Below, piece after piece: positions 39,535-42,565 of a stretch of 64,000 nt of DNA. The notes beneath the pieces are model-generated. The model worked only from the letters and a program-made list of their open reading frames with translations. It made no database searches and had not been told where the DNA came from. Source of the stretch: Alloalcanivorax xenomutans (GTDB taxonomy: Bacteria > Pseudomonadota > Gammaproteobacteria > Pseudomonadales > Alcanivoracaceae); contig NZ_OBMO01000007.1 in the NCBI RefSeq assembly GCF_900217905.1, positions 1 to 64,000 on the forward strand. Direction: 5' to 3'. The translations under genes and the position numbers were made by a program. Within the stretch, counting starts at the first letter, position 1. Each line of letters starts with the position of its first letter.

Positions 39535-40058
39535 AGGCAAGCAATGAACAAGGCGTGCGAGTGGCGATGATCGTGGCCATGGCCCGTAATCGGGTGATCG
39601 GCCGCGACAACAAGCTGCCCTGGTATCTGCCCAACGATCTCAAGTACTTCAAGCGCACCACCCTGGGCAAACCGGTGGTGATGGGGCGGCTGACCTGGGA
39701 ATCTCTGGGGCGGCCATTACCGGGCCGTACCAATATCGTCATCAGCCGGGATCCGGACTATCAGGCCGAGGGCGCCAGGGTGGTGGCGGATCTGGATCAG
39801 GCTCTGGCGCTGGCGGAGAACGTGGCGTTCATCGACGGTCAGGACGAAGTGATGATTCTGGGTGGCGCGCAGATCTATGCTCTGGCGCTGCCCCGGGCGG
39901 ACCGGCTCTACATCACCGAAGTGCAGGCGGAGGTGGATGGGGACGCCTGGTTCCCGCAATGGGACCGGTCACAGTGGGTGGAGCGGGGCCGGGAGTCCTT
40001 CAAAGCGGAAGGGCCGAACCCTTACGATTACGACTTCGTGGTTTTTGACCGCCGCTGA
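39531..40058 (+). CDS. folA: Dihydrofolate reductase
   Basis: A 175-residue reductase restoring tetrahydrofolate after thymidylate synthesis. Motifs: [27 protein letters not shown] (residues about 14-40, with the catalytic Asp in PNDL), [18 protein letters not shown], and the NADPH loop [13 protein letters not shown]. An extra 10 N-terminal residues relative to the short form come from the ATG overlapping the thyA stop. Its 3' end overlaps the convergent XRE gene by 31 bp. Confidence 0.95.
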
Positions 40059-40420
40059 CGGCGGCGGGCAGCGGGCGTGCGTTTGGCCAGGACCCGGGCC
40101 ATTTCCACCAGCGTGATACGGTCCGCCGGGCTCATGGTGCCCACCACCGACAGTAATTCCCGGGTATGTTTGTCGAAGGCCGCTGCGGGATCGCTCAAGG
40201 CAGCGCCGCTACGGCCTTGCAGTTCCTGAAAGAAGTCCGCCAGCGTTATTTCCAGGGCGTCGCAAAGCCGCCCCAGCCGCTGTACCGTGACGTCCTGCCG
40301 ATTGCGCTCGATGCGCGACAGATTGCCCGCGTCGGTGTCCGCCCGGAACGCCACGTCCTCGAGAGTTTCGTTGCGGCTAAGCCGCCGCCTTTTCAAGATG
40401 CCGCCGATATCCGTGTCCAT
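40028..40420 (-). CDS. XRE-family regulator, paralogue A
   Basis: About 130 residues. The N-terminal HTH_3 domain reads DIGGILKRRRLSRNETLEDVAFRA, then DAGNLSRIERNRQDVTVQRL. The C-terminal part is helical with AFDKHTRELLSVVGTM and a basic tail ([12 protein letters not shown]). It is closely similar to the neighbour at 40545-40898, most strongly in the recognition helix (GNLSRIERNRQD identical). ATG 40420 is chosen by alignment with that paralogue; 40456 is the alternative. A pair of 6-4-6 palindromes begins 43 bp upstream. It likely binds these sites and controls itself, its paralogue or the methyltransferase gene. Its 3' end overlaps folA. Confidence 0.88.
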   Translation of the reverse strand: MDTDIGGILKRRRLSRNETLEDVAFRADTDAGNLSRIERNRQDVTVQRLGRLCDALEITLADFFQELQGRSGAALSDPAAAFDKHTRELLSVVGTMSPADRITLVEMARVLAKRTPAARRRQRRSKTTKS

Positions 40421-40462
40421 GGAATAAGTGTCGGGAAGCGCTCTTTTGCCCGCCATGACCTA

Positions 40463-40502
40463 TTTGCAAGAATGCAAAAGAGCGAATTTGCATTTATGCA
40501 AT
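40463..40502. promoter_or_regulatory. Operator pair A: two TTTGCA-N4-TGCAA sites
   Basis: TTTGCA-AGAA-TGCAAA (40463-40478, perfect) and TTTGCA-TTTA-TGCAAT (40487-40502) start 24 bp apart, separated by AGAGCGAA. They lie 43 bp before the start of XRE paralogue A. The spacing and separator match operator pair B almost exactly. Confidence 0.8.
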
Positions 40503-40544
40503 AATAGAGCAGATGCTCTTGCCATTGCGCAAGGGAAATCGTGC

Positions 40545-40898
40545 TCAAGCCAGCCGGCCGCTTTTGGCGATGGTCTCGGTGATTTCCAGAATCAGGCGCC
40601 GCCGGGTCGGCGGGACGGTCTTGATCGTCTTCAGCAGCCAGCGGGTTTCCTTGTCGAAAGCCGCGGTGGGATCGCTGAGCCGGTTGCCGCCGTCTCGTTT
40701 CTCCAGCTCCGCGAAGAACTCGGAAAGGCTTATTTCCAGGGCTTCACACAGTTTGATCAGACGATTGACGGAAAGATCCTGCCGGTTGCGCTCGATGCGG
40801 GACAAATTGCCCGGATCGGTGCCCGCGCGAAACGCCACCTCTTCCAGAGTTTCTTTGCGGCGCTCGCGCCGTTCCTTGAGTAGTGCCCCGATATCCAT
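40545..40898 (-). CDS. XRE-family regulator, paralogue B
   Basis: A 117-residue helix-turn-helix protein: DIGALLKERRERRKETLEEVAFRA, then DPGNLSRIERNRQDLSVNRL, then EALEISLSEFFAELEKRDGG and a helical end (AFDKETRWLLKTIKTV). It is homologous along its length to paralogue A, indicating tandem duplication. ATG 40898 gives MDIGALL at the same position as the MDTDIGG start of A; the upstream open frame to 40994 runs through its own operators and is discounted. It is divergent from the DNA methyltransferase gene (245-bp gap), as restriction-modification controller proteins often are. Confidence 0.88.
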   Translation of the reverse strand: MDIGALLKERRERRKETLEEVAFRAGTDPGNLSRIERNRQDLSVNRLIKLCEALEISLSEFFAELEKRDGGNRLSDPTAAFDKETRWLLKTIKTVPPTRRRLILEITETIAKSGRLA

Positions 40899-40940
40899 GA
40901 TGAAAGTTTCATAGGCCGATGTCCGGGGCGCAATGACATA

Positions 40941-40980
40941 ATTGCAACATCGCAAAGAGCGACATTTGCAATTGAGCAAA
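40941..40980. promoter_or_regulatory. Operator pair B: two TTTGCA-N4-type sites
   Basis: ATTGCA-ACAT-CGCAAA (40941-40956) and TTTGCA-ATTG-AGCAAA (40965-40980) start 24 bp apart with separator GAGCGACA. The pair begins 43 bp upstream of XRE paralogue B, exactly the distance seen for pair A and paralogue A. Confidence 0.8.
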
Positions 40981-41046
40981 GAGAGCTGCGTCACATTTGT
41001 TGAACTGCAAGGCGGTGACTTGCCGGTCGCTCTAATTTATTTCCAT

Positions 41047-41062
41047 ATTGCGTTTATGCAAA
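41047..41062. promoter_or_regulatory. Fifth operator-like site, methyltransferase promoter
   Basis: ATTGCG-TTTA-TGCAAA lies 82 bp before the methyltransferase start, in an AT-rich stretch (TCTAATTTATTTCCATATTG) that could hold the promoter. It shares the 6-4-6 layout with the paired sites but stands alone. Confidence 0.65.
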
Positions 41063-41143
41063 CCAAAATGCTCTGCTTCGTGCTACGGTTACTCCACGGA
41101 GGGCCGTGGAAAAGTCGGTAATTAAAGAGCGAAGTGAGCACTG

Positions 41144-42565
41144 ATGGATATGGATGGGGCTGCTGTTCGTAATTTTTATTATAGACCTTCCAGCAAGAAT
41201 GATTTTGCAAATTCGCAAACCGGATTTTCCCTCAACGACCCTCGTGACAATGGCGGTTTCGGCCTTTACTGGCCAGGCAAGGAGGCCATGCTTGCCGAGC
41301 TGGCCCGGGTGCCCGCTGGCCGTCTGGAACACCTGGAGCGGCCGCCGCTGACCGGCGGGGCGGCCCCTCATCGCATCATCGAGGGCGACAACCTGGCGGT
41401 GCTCCATCATCTGCAGCCGGACCTGCGCGGCCAGGTGAAAATGATCTATATCGATCCGCCCTATAATACCGGCCGAGGCTTTCTGTATCCGGACAATTAT
41501 CGCCATTCCGTGGCCGCCTATCTGGCCCTGGCCGGTGACATCGGCGAGAACGATGACAGTGGCCGCCTGCATGCCCGCTGGCTGAACATGATGTACCCGC
41601 GGCTGCTGCTGGCGCGGGAGCTGTTGCGTGATGACGGGGTACTGTTCGTCAGCATCGATGATCACGAGGTACACACTCTGCGCCTGATTCTCGACGAGAT
41701 CTTCGGCCCGGACAATTTCGTCGCCACTTTTCCCTGGCAGTCGCGCACCTCACGGCAAAACGACACCGATCTCAGCGTGCAGCACGAATACATCCTTGCC
41801 TATGCCCGGACGCGGCGGCGCCAGCAGCGGCGTCTGACCGCCAGTAATCAGGAAGTATGGGATCGTTTGCCCGGGTTCGCGGTGCGCCCCGGCCCGTTGA
41901 TCGATGACCGTTACAGCAATCCGGATGACGATCCGCGCGGCCCCTGGAAGCTGGACCCCTTCGACGCGCCCAACCGCCGCCCGGGGTTGACCTACGCGAT
42001 CACCAATCCAAACACCGGCGAAACATTCTGGCCGCCGGAGGGACGGTGCTGGCGTACCGGTGAGGAACGGTTCAAGGAGCTGAACGGGCAGAAGCGCATC
42101 CTGTTCGGGCGGCGCGGGAGGGGGCGGCCGCAACTGAAAGTATTCCTGCGCGAGAAAGCGCCTTTTGGCGAGGTGCCGGTGACCTGGCTGGATGGGCACC
42201 ACTACGGCACCGCGCGCTCCGGTACCCAGGAGCTGCAGGCCCTGTTCGGCGGTCAGGCGCCGTTCTCCTATCCCAAGCCCACCCGCTTGATCCGCTTTCT
42301 GCTCGAGATCGCCACCGGCCCCAGGGATCTGGTGCTGGACTTCTTTGCCGGCAGCGGCACCACTGGGCAGGCGGTGTTGGAATTGAACCGGGATCAGCAC
42401 AGCCGCCGCCGCTTCGTCCTGGTGCAGGGCAGCGAACCCACCGGTGATGCTCGCTGGCCCACCATCGCCGAGCTGACCCGCGAGCGGGTGCGGCGGGTAT
42501 TGGAGCGGGATGCTTTGGTGAACCAGGGATTCCGGGCCCTGCGCTGGGTGCCGCGGGGCCGCTGA
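41144..42565 (+). CDS. Orphan beta-class adenine-type DNA methyltransferase (type III Mod-like)
   Basis: A 473-residue DNA methyltransferase. Motif IV DPPYNTG is at about residue 104, ahead of motif I FAGSGTTGQAV at about 401, so the order is beta-class (N6-adenine or N4-cytosine). LYWPGK...IIEGDNLAVLHHL before motif IV and ILFGRRGRGRPQLKVFLRE in the middle match type III Mod proteins, but it is shorter than the usual 550-650. The target-recognition region is about 170-380. The first 25 codons are AT-rich and contain a sixth operator-like site (41204-41219). No Res or other nuclease gene is adjacent; the following gene is an unrelated membrane protein. It is probably a solitary, regulated methyltransferase. 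Confidence 0.88.
   Translation: MDMDGAAVRNFYYRPSSKNDFANSQTGFSLNDPRDNGGFGLYWPGKEAMLAELARVPAGRLEHLERPPLTGGAAPHRIIEGDNLAVLHHLQPDLRGQVKMIYIDPPYNTGRGFLYPDNYRHSVAAYLALAGDIGENDDSGRLHARWLNMMYPRLLLARELLRDDGVLFVSIDDHEVHTLRLILDEIFGPDNFVATFPWQSRTSRQNDTDLSVQHEYILAYARTRRRQQRRLTASNQEVWDRLPGFAVRPGPLIDDRYSNPDDDPRGPWKLDPFDAPNRRPGLTYAITNPNTGETFWPPEGRCWRTGEERFKELNGQKRILFGRRGRGRPQLKVFLREKAPFGEVPVTWLDGHHYGTARSGTQELQALFGGQAPFSYPKPTRLIRFLLEIATGPRDLVLDFFAGSGTTGQAVLELNRDQHSRRRFVLVQGSEPTGDARWPTIAELTRERVRRVLERDALVNQGFRALRWVPRGR
41204..41219. promoter_or_regulatory. Sixth operator-like site inside methyltransferase 5' end
   Basis: TTTGCA-AATT-CGCAAA falls 60 bp after the annotated ATG. It could be a roadblock site, or show that the true start is further downstream, although conserved LYWPGK residues just after it argue against a much later start. 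Confidence 0.55.

Follow-up and report, generated by a model that had tools for sequence, protein, structure and literature searches.

The window, the whole 64-kb stretch of DNA that was analysed, falls in the genus Alloalcanivorax, judging by its relatives, and contains genes that we take, from reading their sequences, to be lgt, thyA and folA. They are followed on the opposite strand by two small regulator genes, reg1 and reg2, and then by a DNA methyltransferase gene (N6/N4 type) that is transcribed divergently from reg2. The features of the locus are, in window coordinates:

40028-40420, minus strand: reg1, XRE/HTH_3 regulator of 130 aa (HTH_3 30.7 bits, cut-off 23)
40464-40477, minus strand: predicted reg1 operator O1, TTGCATTCTTGCAA, 43 bases before the ATG (A at 40420)
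40488-40501, minus strand: predicted reg1 operator O2, TTGCATAAATGCAA, 24 bp from O1
40519-40532, minus strand: predicted reg1 operator O3, TTGCGCAATGGCAA, 31 bp from O2, core 8/8
40545-40898, minus strand: reg2, XRE/HTH_3 regulator of 117 aa, tandem paralogue of reg1 (HTH_3 44.5 bits, cut-off 23)
40905-40933, minus strand: putative weak, leaderless reg2 promoter, TTGCGC-17-GAAACT, with 6 nt between its end and the ATG, 6/12 consensus matches, no Shine-Dalgarno
40942-40955, minus strand: predicted reg2 operator O1, TTGCGATGTTGCAA, 43 bases before the ATG (A at 40898)
40966-40979, minus strand: predicted reg2 operator O2, TTGCTCAATTGCAA, 24 bp from O1
40997-41010, minus strand: predicted reg2 operator O3, TTGCAGTTCAACAA, 31 bp from O2, core 7/8
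41048-41061, plus strand: operator-like site upstream of the methyltransferase gene, TTGCGTTTATGCAA, core 8/8 (7/8 in G001)
41144-42565, plus strand: Type III Mod-like DNA methyltransferase of the beta class, 473 aa, PF01555 at 118 bits, lacking the C-terminal domain of Mod
41205-41218, plus strand: operator-like site within the methyltransferase 5' end, TTGCAAATTCGCAA, identical in 4/4 clade-1 genomes

A further in-frame ATG is present upstream of reg1 at 40456. The site at 41205-41218 lies in coding sequence, and coding conservation may explain its identity among the clade-1 genomes. An earlier sequence-only reading had described a duplicated module of regulator and operator pair, the pair lying 43 bp from the gene with a spacing of 24 bp in both copies. 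These distances were reproduced at 40464/40488 and 40942/40966. The operator pair itself was thus correctly recognized, but the module had been drawn too small: it left out a third site in each promoter, 31 bp distal to the pair and 98 bases away from the ATG, the sites at 41048 and 41205, and the neighbouring methyltransferase.

The exact motif TTGCA-N5-GCAA was confined to the regulator locus within the 64-kb window. With one mismatch allowed, 26 matches were obtained, which is unremarkable (shuffle mean 18.05; 26 was reached by 11 of 100 shuffles), so the signal is carried by the clustering and spacing of the sites and not by the motif alone. Spacing was analyzed in 13 loci of the genus (132,033 bases) by scanning for near-core pairs 15-40 bp apart. 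The commonest distances within the regulator stretch were 24 bp, with 23 places in 13 genomes, and 31 bp, with 18 places, likewise in 13 genomes; a distance of 32 bp occurred at 8 places in 4 genomes and eight further distances at 1-3 places each; the rest of the 132,033 bases held 3 near-core pairs in total, at 33 or 36 bp. Paired palindromic sites were present upstream of their own gene in all 26 regulator copies, with some degenerate cores: 6 or 7 of 8 positions matched in group X (G008, G009 and G011) and group Y (G003, G004, G005, G007 and G010), and also at second or third sites elsewhere. The 24-bp pair was found in 13/13 reg1 and 12/13 reg2 copies, the exception being reg2 of G006 with 23 bp, and the site at 31 bp in 13/13 reg1 and 5/13 reg2 copies (clade 1 and G006), which makes 18 of 26 overall. 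Between site and ATG there were 44-45 bases for reg1 in groups Y and X, and 87-103 for reg2 in group Y. Equal spacing had been read as a sign of duplication. It is indeed identical in both copies, but it is no proof of a simple recent copy, since a 24-bp spacing kept throughout the genus points to constraint and not to youth.

Regulator relatives from outside carried an exact TTGC-N6/7-GCAA site at most 160 bases from their start in 13 of 15 cases, compared to 23 of 2823 random 160-base stretches from the same loci; the TTGC-N6-GCAA motif therefore fits the regulator protein family. As candidates for genome-wide targets, occurrences of TTTGCRNNNNYGCAAW were collected in G000, where it is present at 11 distinct places, 6 of them outside the locus. 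These were, by judgement, not counted as targets. Four of the six (L131, L133, L134 and L136) adjoin AATAGTTAACAG-like intergenic repeats when inspected by eye, L135 lacks such a repeat, also by eye, and L132 lies inside a 671-codon open frame. The repeats at the four places, on contigs 4, 13 and 32 of G000, are dispersed and intergenic, have AATAGTTAACAG-like arms beside TTTGC/GCAA palindromes and are apparently unrelated to the operators.

Base-by-base alignment of the reg1 and reg2 promoters, anchored at the ATG, resulted in 59 identical bases of 112 (shuffle mean 30.1, maximum 49, n=1000), and other registers within 12 bases gave at most 39. Outside the three operator cores the window promoters were identical at 30 of 70 bases, a value reached by 4 of 1000 shuffles; the remaining clade-1 genomes had 28-29 of 70 (1-7 of 1000 shuffles) and G006 had 39 of 70 (0 of 1000). 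A gapped DNA alignment of both modules spanned the distal operator through most of the gene. As the identity extends beyond the operators, gene and control region were copied together, in agreement with what had been proposed from the sequence.

The two regulators are 58.6% identical over 116 aligned residues, and the recognition-helix stretch GNLSRIERNRQD was confirmed to be the same in both. A recognition stretch of the form NLS[RK][IV]E was present in 41 of 41 family regulators compared, so that having it in common does not point to recent copying. It is plausible from the sequences that reg1 and reg2 bind each other's sites. The nearest solved structures in a profile search were ClgR (1.5e-7), C.Esp1396I (3clc; 1e-6) and C.BclI (2.2e-5). 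C.AhdI was matched weakly, ClgR outscored C.Esp1396I, C.BclI and C.AhdI, and no match named C.Csp231I appeared when the PDB was searched by profile with E-values up to 1. The best Foldseek E-value was 1.1e-3. With ClgR ranking above the controller (C) proteins and a Foldseek value of this size, the likeness to C proteins rests on a generic HTH.

Relatives were sought in the GTDB species set by means of short conserved peptides, a scan in which diverged copies can be missed. It returned 26 loci, 11 of which are this locus (56-97% identity to reg2), while the other 15 had 30-61% identity to reg2, the higher values over partial length. Plasmids gave no match to reg1 or reg2 at E 1e-6, and phages gave none to reg2, the query used there, at the same threshold. 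The tree grouped reg1 and reg2 with a paralogue from the genus (L102, L105), separately from the 13 other relatives (98/98). Closer relatives of either gene in unrelated genomes, which had been named as the observation that would speak against duplication, were not found among these loci. The paralogue at L102 and L105 is a distant third member located elsewhere in some Alloalcanivorax genomes and has a TTGCGC(C/T)AGTGCAA site upstream.

In all 13 Alloalcanivorax genomes reg1, reg2 and the methyltransferase gene are found in the same order between folA and the same downstream gene. Of 46 genomes searched in the family, 45 had folA, and 19 loci outside the genus were inspected. All 19 had lgt-thyA-folA and 16 had the same downstream gene, and no regulator or methyltransferase match was present within about 1500 bases. 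Among six of these loci that were read closely, a gene that reads as OsmC-like intervenes in three of the four from group g4, and at L152 (G308) a frame resembling Rho factor, again by reading, follows folA on the opposite strand, unlike the other loci read closely. The presence of the cassette in 13/13 genus genomes and 0/19 other family loci shows by sequence comparison that it was gained, and the regulator duplicated, before Alloalcanivorax radiated; the arrangement is old, not recent. The synonymous distance between reg1 and reg2 was 1.04 in G000 and 0.93 in G006. Reconstruction in relatives, which had been suggested as a check, placed the pair as ancestral to the genus. For its internal branching order, with 117 columns and 9 of the 15 outside relatives, 5 of 5 clade tests were non-significant (p-AU 0.105-0.354), and the allowed topologies comprise a single reg1 clade (p-AU 0.105), a single reg2 clade (0.179) and a duplication inside clade 1 alone (0.354). 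A1 holds 8 and A2 holds 4 of the 26 regulator copies.

The reg1 protein of G000 was 77.7 or 83.5% identical to that of G001 or G012, compared to 93.9-99.6% for five neighbours, and most of the change was located in the C-terminal half. For reg1 codons 69-118 (40067-40216) dS from G000 was 1.32 (G001) and 1.62 (G012), versus 0.24 and 0.27 in the HTH half. In equal windows of the neighbours, pS for G001 did not exceed 0.35 (1004 windows) against about 0.62 for the reg1 stretch, and for G012 it rose to 0.72 (1083 windows, in the methyltransferase) against about 0.66. The pattern in codons 69-118 appears as it would after allelic exchange, being a clear outlier for G001 and not for G012. Codons ~288-334 of the G012 methyltransferase gene (L054) form a local patch where synonymous divergence from G000 is 0.72, the median over the windows being 0.24; this is a hint that recombination has taken place within the gene. 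In G001 (A. balearicus, L053) the usual stop of reg1 is lost and the frame of 297 codons continues antisense through folA; it was trimmed to 130 aa in the trees and to 121 codons in the dN/dS analysis. In X and Y it is reg2 that changes fast, with 37-50% identity to reg1, so the fast-changing copy differs by clade: the C-terminal half of reg1 in the window's clade, and reg2 in X and Y. The proposal that one copy senses something different is not directly supported by these data, which consist of a faster change of one copy.

Two types of regulator promoter were found. Eighteen copies are of the triad type (13 reg1, 5 reg2). None of them had a Shine-Dalgarno-like word (GGAG, GAGG, AGGA or AAGG) in the 22 bases before the ATG, and their best start-proximal promoter pair, often approximately TTGAGN-17-GAAACT, had 6-8 of 12 matches and ended 3-7 nt before the ATG. 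The poorest fit among them was that of the window reg1, CGGGCA-17-ACTTAT, which ends just 3 nt before the ATG, and a consensus promoter scan of 40380-41320 found no promoter. In the triad copies the operators end 43-45 bases before the ATG, upstream of the sole start-proximal promoter-like pair found. From this we infer weak, probably leaderless promoters with operators just upstream, a geometry like that of activation. The TLE of the regulators aligns with the TQE of C.Esp1396I in a profile alignment, and the helix-2 residue aligned with the C-protein sigma contact is glutamate in 18/18 triad copies. The reg2 genes of X and Y (8 of 13 genomes) have other promoters and a ribosome-binding site upstream, and the aligned residue is K in 5 and Q in 3 of the 8; the L102/L105 paralogue also has Q. 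The eight X and Y copies of reg2 form one clade (97/97), so the lack of the glutamate reflects one or two events and not eight. On the evidence of promoter and residue, triad copies would be able to activate, whereas reg2 of X and Y would act as a repressor. The activator features are retained in both copies within the window's clade. In group X (L059, L061, L063) the gap between reg2 and the methyltransferase gene is nearly symmetric, with two inverted TTGCGCATAAGCAA-type sites and outward TATAAA/TATACT-like elements, as judged by eye.

PMC4824078 describes C.Csp231I as leaderless, like many C genes, and as activating at low and repressing at high dose; the word 'leaderless' is absent from PMC6237814. 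The SQE motif of C.Csp231I is thought to touch sigma-70, according to PMC4824078, and mutation of the motif also abolished DNA binding in vitro (PMC4824078). Because of this loss of binding, the glutamate is no clean marker of activation.

The methyltransferase matched EcoP15I Mod (E 1.9e-51, 178.9 bits), with the match stopping at Mod residue 514, the Mod of 6k0w (E 2.9e-58) and the PADLOC MTase_III profile (8e-113). It has the beta-class order, DPPY before FxGxG with the TRD between, and DPPY and FAGSG are kept. For the motif comparison, the usable order-level relative was L070, one of six. A central stretch, SRTSRQNDTDL, was invariant in 13/13 genomes, which is compatible with one target common to the genus. 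A predicted structure of the enzyme was set aside (mean pLDDT 56.4). In PMC4490356 the Res-contacting C-terminal domain of EcoP15I Mod is given as residues 539-644; the window enzyme lacks this domain, which docks the endonuclease in EcoP15I. Its length is 469-473 aa in clade 1 and X and 549-567 aa in Y and G006. The tail of the longer G006 enzyme gave no match to the EcoP15I C-terminal domain either, and for this reason the missing Res-docking domain is not put forward as proof of domestication. The endonuclease search covered the Type III domain PF19778, which was absent from 12 of 13 genus genomes and also from 14 control genomes. It was found in G007 (A. profundimaris) on another contig, away from the solitary methyltransferase: on contig 7 (L016, L130) a Mod-like frame of 697 codons is followed after ~5 kb by one of 1044 codons that bears the Type III endonuclease domain. 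Within clade 1, dN/dS was 0.07-0.10 for the methyltransferase and 0.08-0.14 for reg2, low values that indicate selection on both. In PMC3874152 a solitary DNA methyltransferase is a modification activity without cognate restriction activity, and C proteins are treated separately. These sequences are most economically read as a solitary methyltransferase kept in the chromosome and controlled by regulators of C-protein-like character, whose likely client is this adjacent enzyme.

Cross-genome comparison of the sequences demonstrates three-site arrays of predicted operators, duplication of the whole module and the age of this event, and a genus-wide link to the methyltransferase gene, with no Type III endonuclease domain detected in its vicinity. 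Together they lead us to favor, with reasonable but far from full confidence, a model in which duplicated autoregulators resembling restriction-modification (R-M) controllers govern a solitary Type III Mod-like methyltransferase whose retained role is to methylate the chromosome. Before the genus radiated, an XRE regulator that controls itself from a promoter with three sites would have been duplicated in tandem, promoter included, within a cassette that holds the methyltransferase between folA and the conserved downstream gene. Dimers of reg1 and reg2, perhaps heterodimers, would bind the TTGC-N6-GCAA sites cooperatively. At their own promoters, with the sites just upstream of a weak, probably leaderless promoter, a low dose would activate and a high dose would limit expression, as in C proteins, and the sites at the methyltransferase gene would hold the enzyme at a low, set level. 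The circuit would then be that of an R-M controller whose remaining client serves chromosome methylation and not restriction. Binding, cooperativity, activation, control of the methyltransferase gene, and the activity and target of the enzyme are presumed here from sequence features.

Autorepression is, as established knowledge, the common mode of small XRE regulators, and both proteins may simply repress themselves and the methyltransferase gene via operators over unrecognised promoters, with the second copy as a dosage backup. Such pure negative autoregulation would agree with two arrangements seen by eye: in group X an operator lies over the TTGCTT-17-TATAAA promoter of reg2, and a TTGCCG-18-CATATT pair would place the 41048 site over the methyltransferase start region. 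It appears rather unlikely, however, given that the triad sites end 43-45 bases before the ATG and upstream of the promoter-like pair, that all 18 triad copies keep the helix-2 glutamate, and that the unequal, faster change of one copy speaks against a plain backup. We give little credence to a further model, in which the two regulator copies have divided the work: one would activate, the other would be a repressor only, and jointly they would fix whether genome methylation is on or off, in a heritable manner. This would be a bistable switch of the CI/Cro kind, driving a domesticated Type III methyltransferase free of restriction. Under this split, reg2 of X and Y, having exchanged the leaderless three-site promoter for one with a ribosome-binding site, with an operator over the -35 element in X and no glutamate, would block what reg1 activates.

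That the locus is a decayed Type III R-M remnant, in which the endonuclease was lost and the three remaining genes survive although no regulatory role is under selection, would be in line with the 12 of 13 genomes without a Type III endonuclease domain and with the Res-docking tail missing from the methyltransferase in clade 1 and group X. We regard this as highly doubtful, since the three genes have open frames in 13/13 genomes, the clade-1 dN/dS values of methyltransferase and reg2 speak for selection, and no relative was seen that combines the regulators with both Mod and Res. It is hardly credible that two similar regulators were acquired independently, with no duplication: the clade tests allow both a reg1 clade and a reg2 clade, but the genes are adjacent, their promoters match in sequence and register, no closer relative was found elsewhere in the sets scanned, and the 98/98 grouping unites them.

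Solitary methyltransferases that have become core genes, such as Dam and CcrM, shape the cell cycle and gene expression. The controller-like circuit favored above would add a Type III-like methyltransferase that is apparently kept throughout a genus without an endonuclease, under two controller-like regulators. The 26 natural regulator copies and their promoters constitute a test series for how duplicated autoregulators divide activation and repression, and for the reuse of an R-M controller circuit once restriction is gone. In the open-access literature searched no paper on this locus was found.

Among known systems, C.Csp231I, as described in PMC4321490 and PMC4824078, is also a small autoregulator of the HTH type that is extended at its C terminus (98 aa, versus 117 and 130 aa here). 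Its palindromic sites are separated by a long spacer whose length is critical (18 bp, versus 10 and 17 bp in the window), its leader is short or absent, as mapped for C.Csp231I and predicted for the window, and a methyltransferase is encoded in the same locus. It differs in its sites, which are two of the form CTAAG-N5-CTTAG instead of three of the form TTGC-N6-GCAA, and in belonging to a Type II R-M system with an endonuclease and one regulator, whereas the window has a lone Type III-like methyltransferase and two regulators. C.Esp1396I shares HTH similarity and, according to PMC3758141, has binding sites both at its own promoter and ahead of the methyltransferase gene; unlike the regulators here it has 82 aa (PDB entry), GACT boxes with adjacent dimers, an endonuclease and a single regulator. 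The operators described here are neither GACT/AGTC nor CTAAG-N5-CTTAG, the two C-box classes compared. RptR, according to PMC12255303, is likewise a small autoregulator encoded close to an R-M system, and its promoter also contains three sites, but these are 6-bp TAGCTA sites in a single major groove, the system is Type I, and RptR is described as a repressor. EcoP15I Mod has the same beta-class motif order (PMC4490356), while the window methyltransferase has neither an adjacent Res nor the Res-contacting domain. The best sequence and fold match among solved structures is to ClgR-type XRE regulators, from which reg1 and reg2 are set apart by scoring 34.6 and 35.4 bits where the NCBIfam cut-off is 170.
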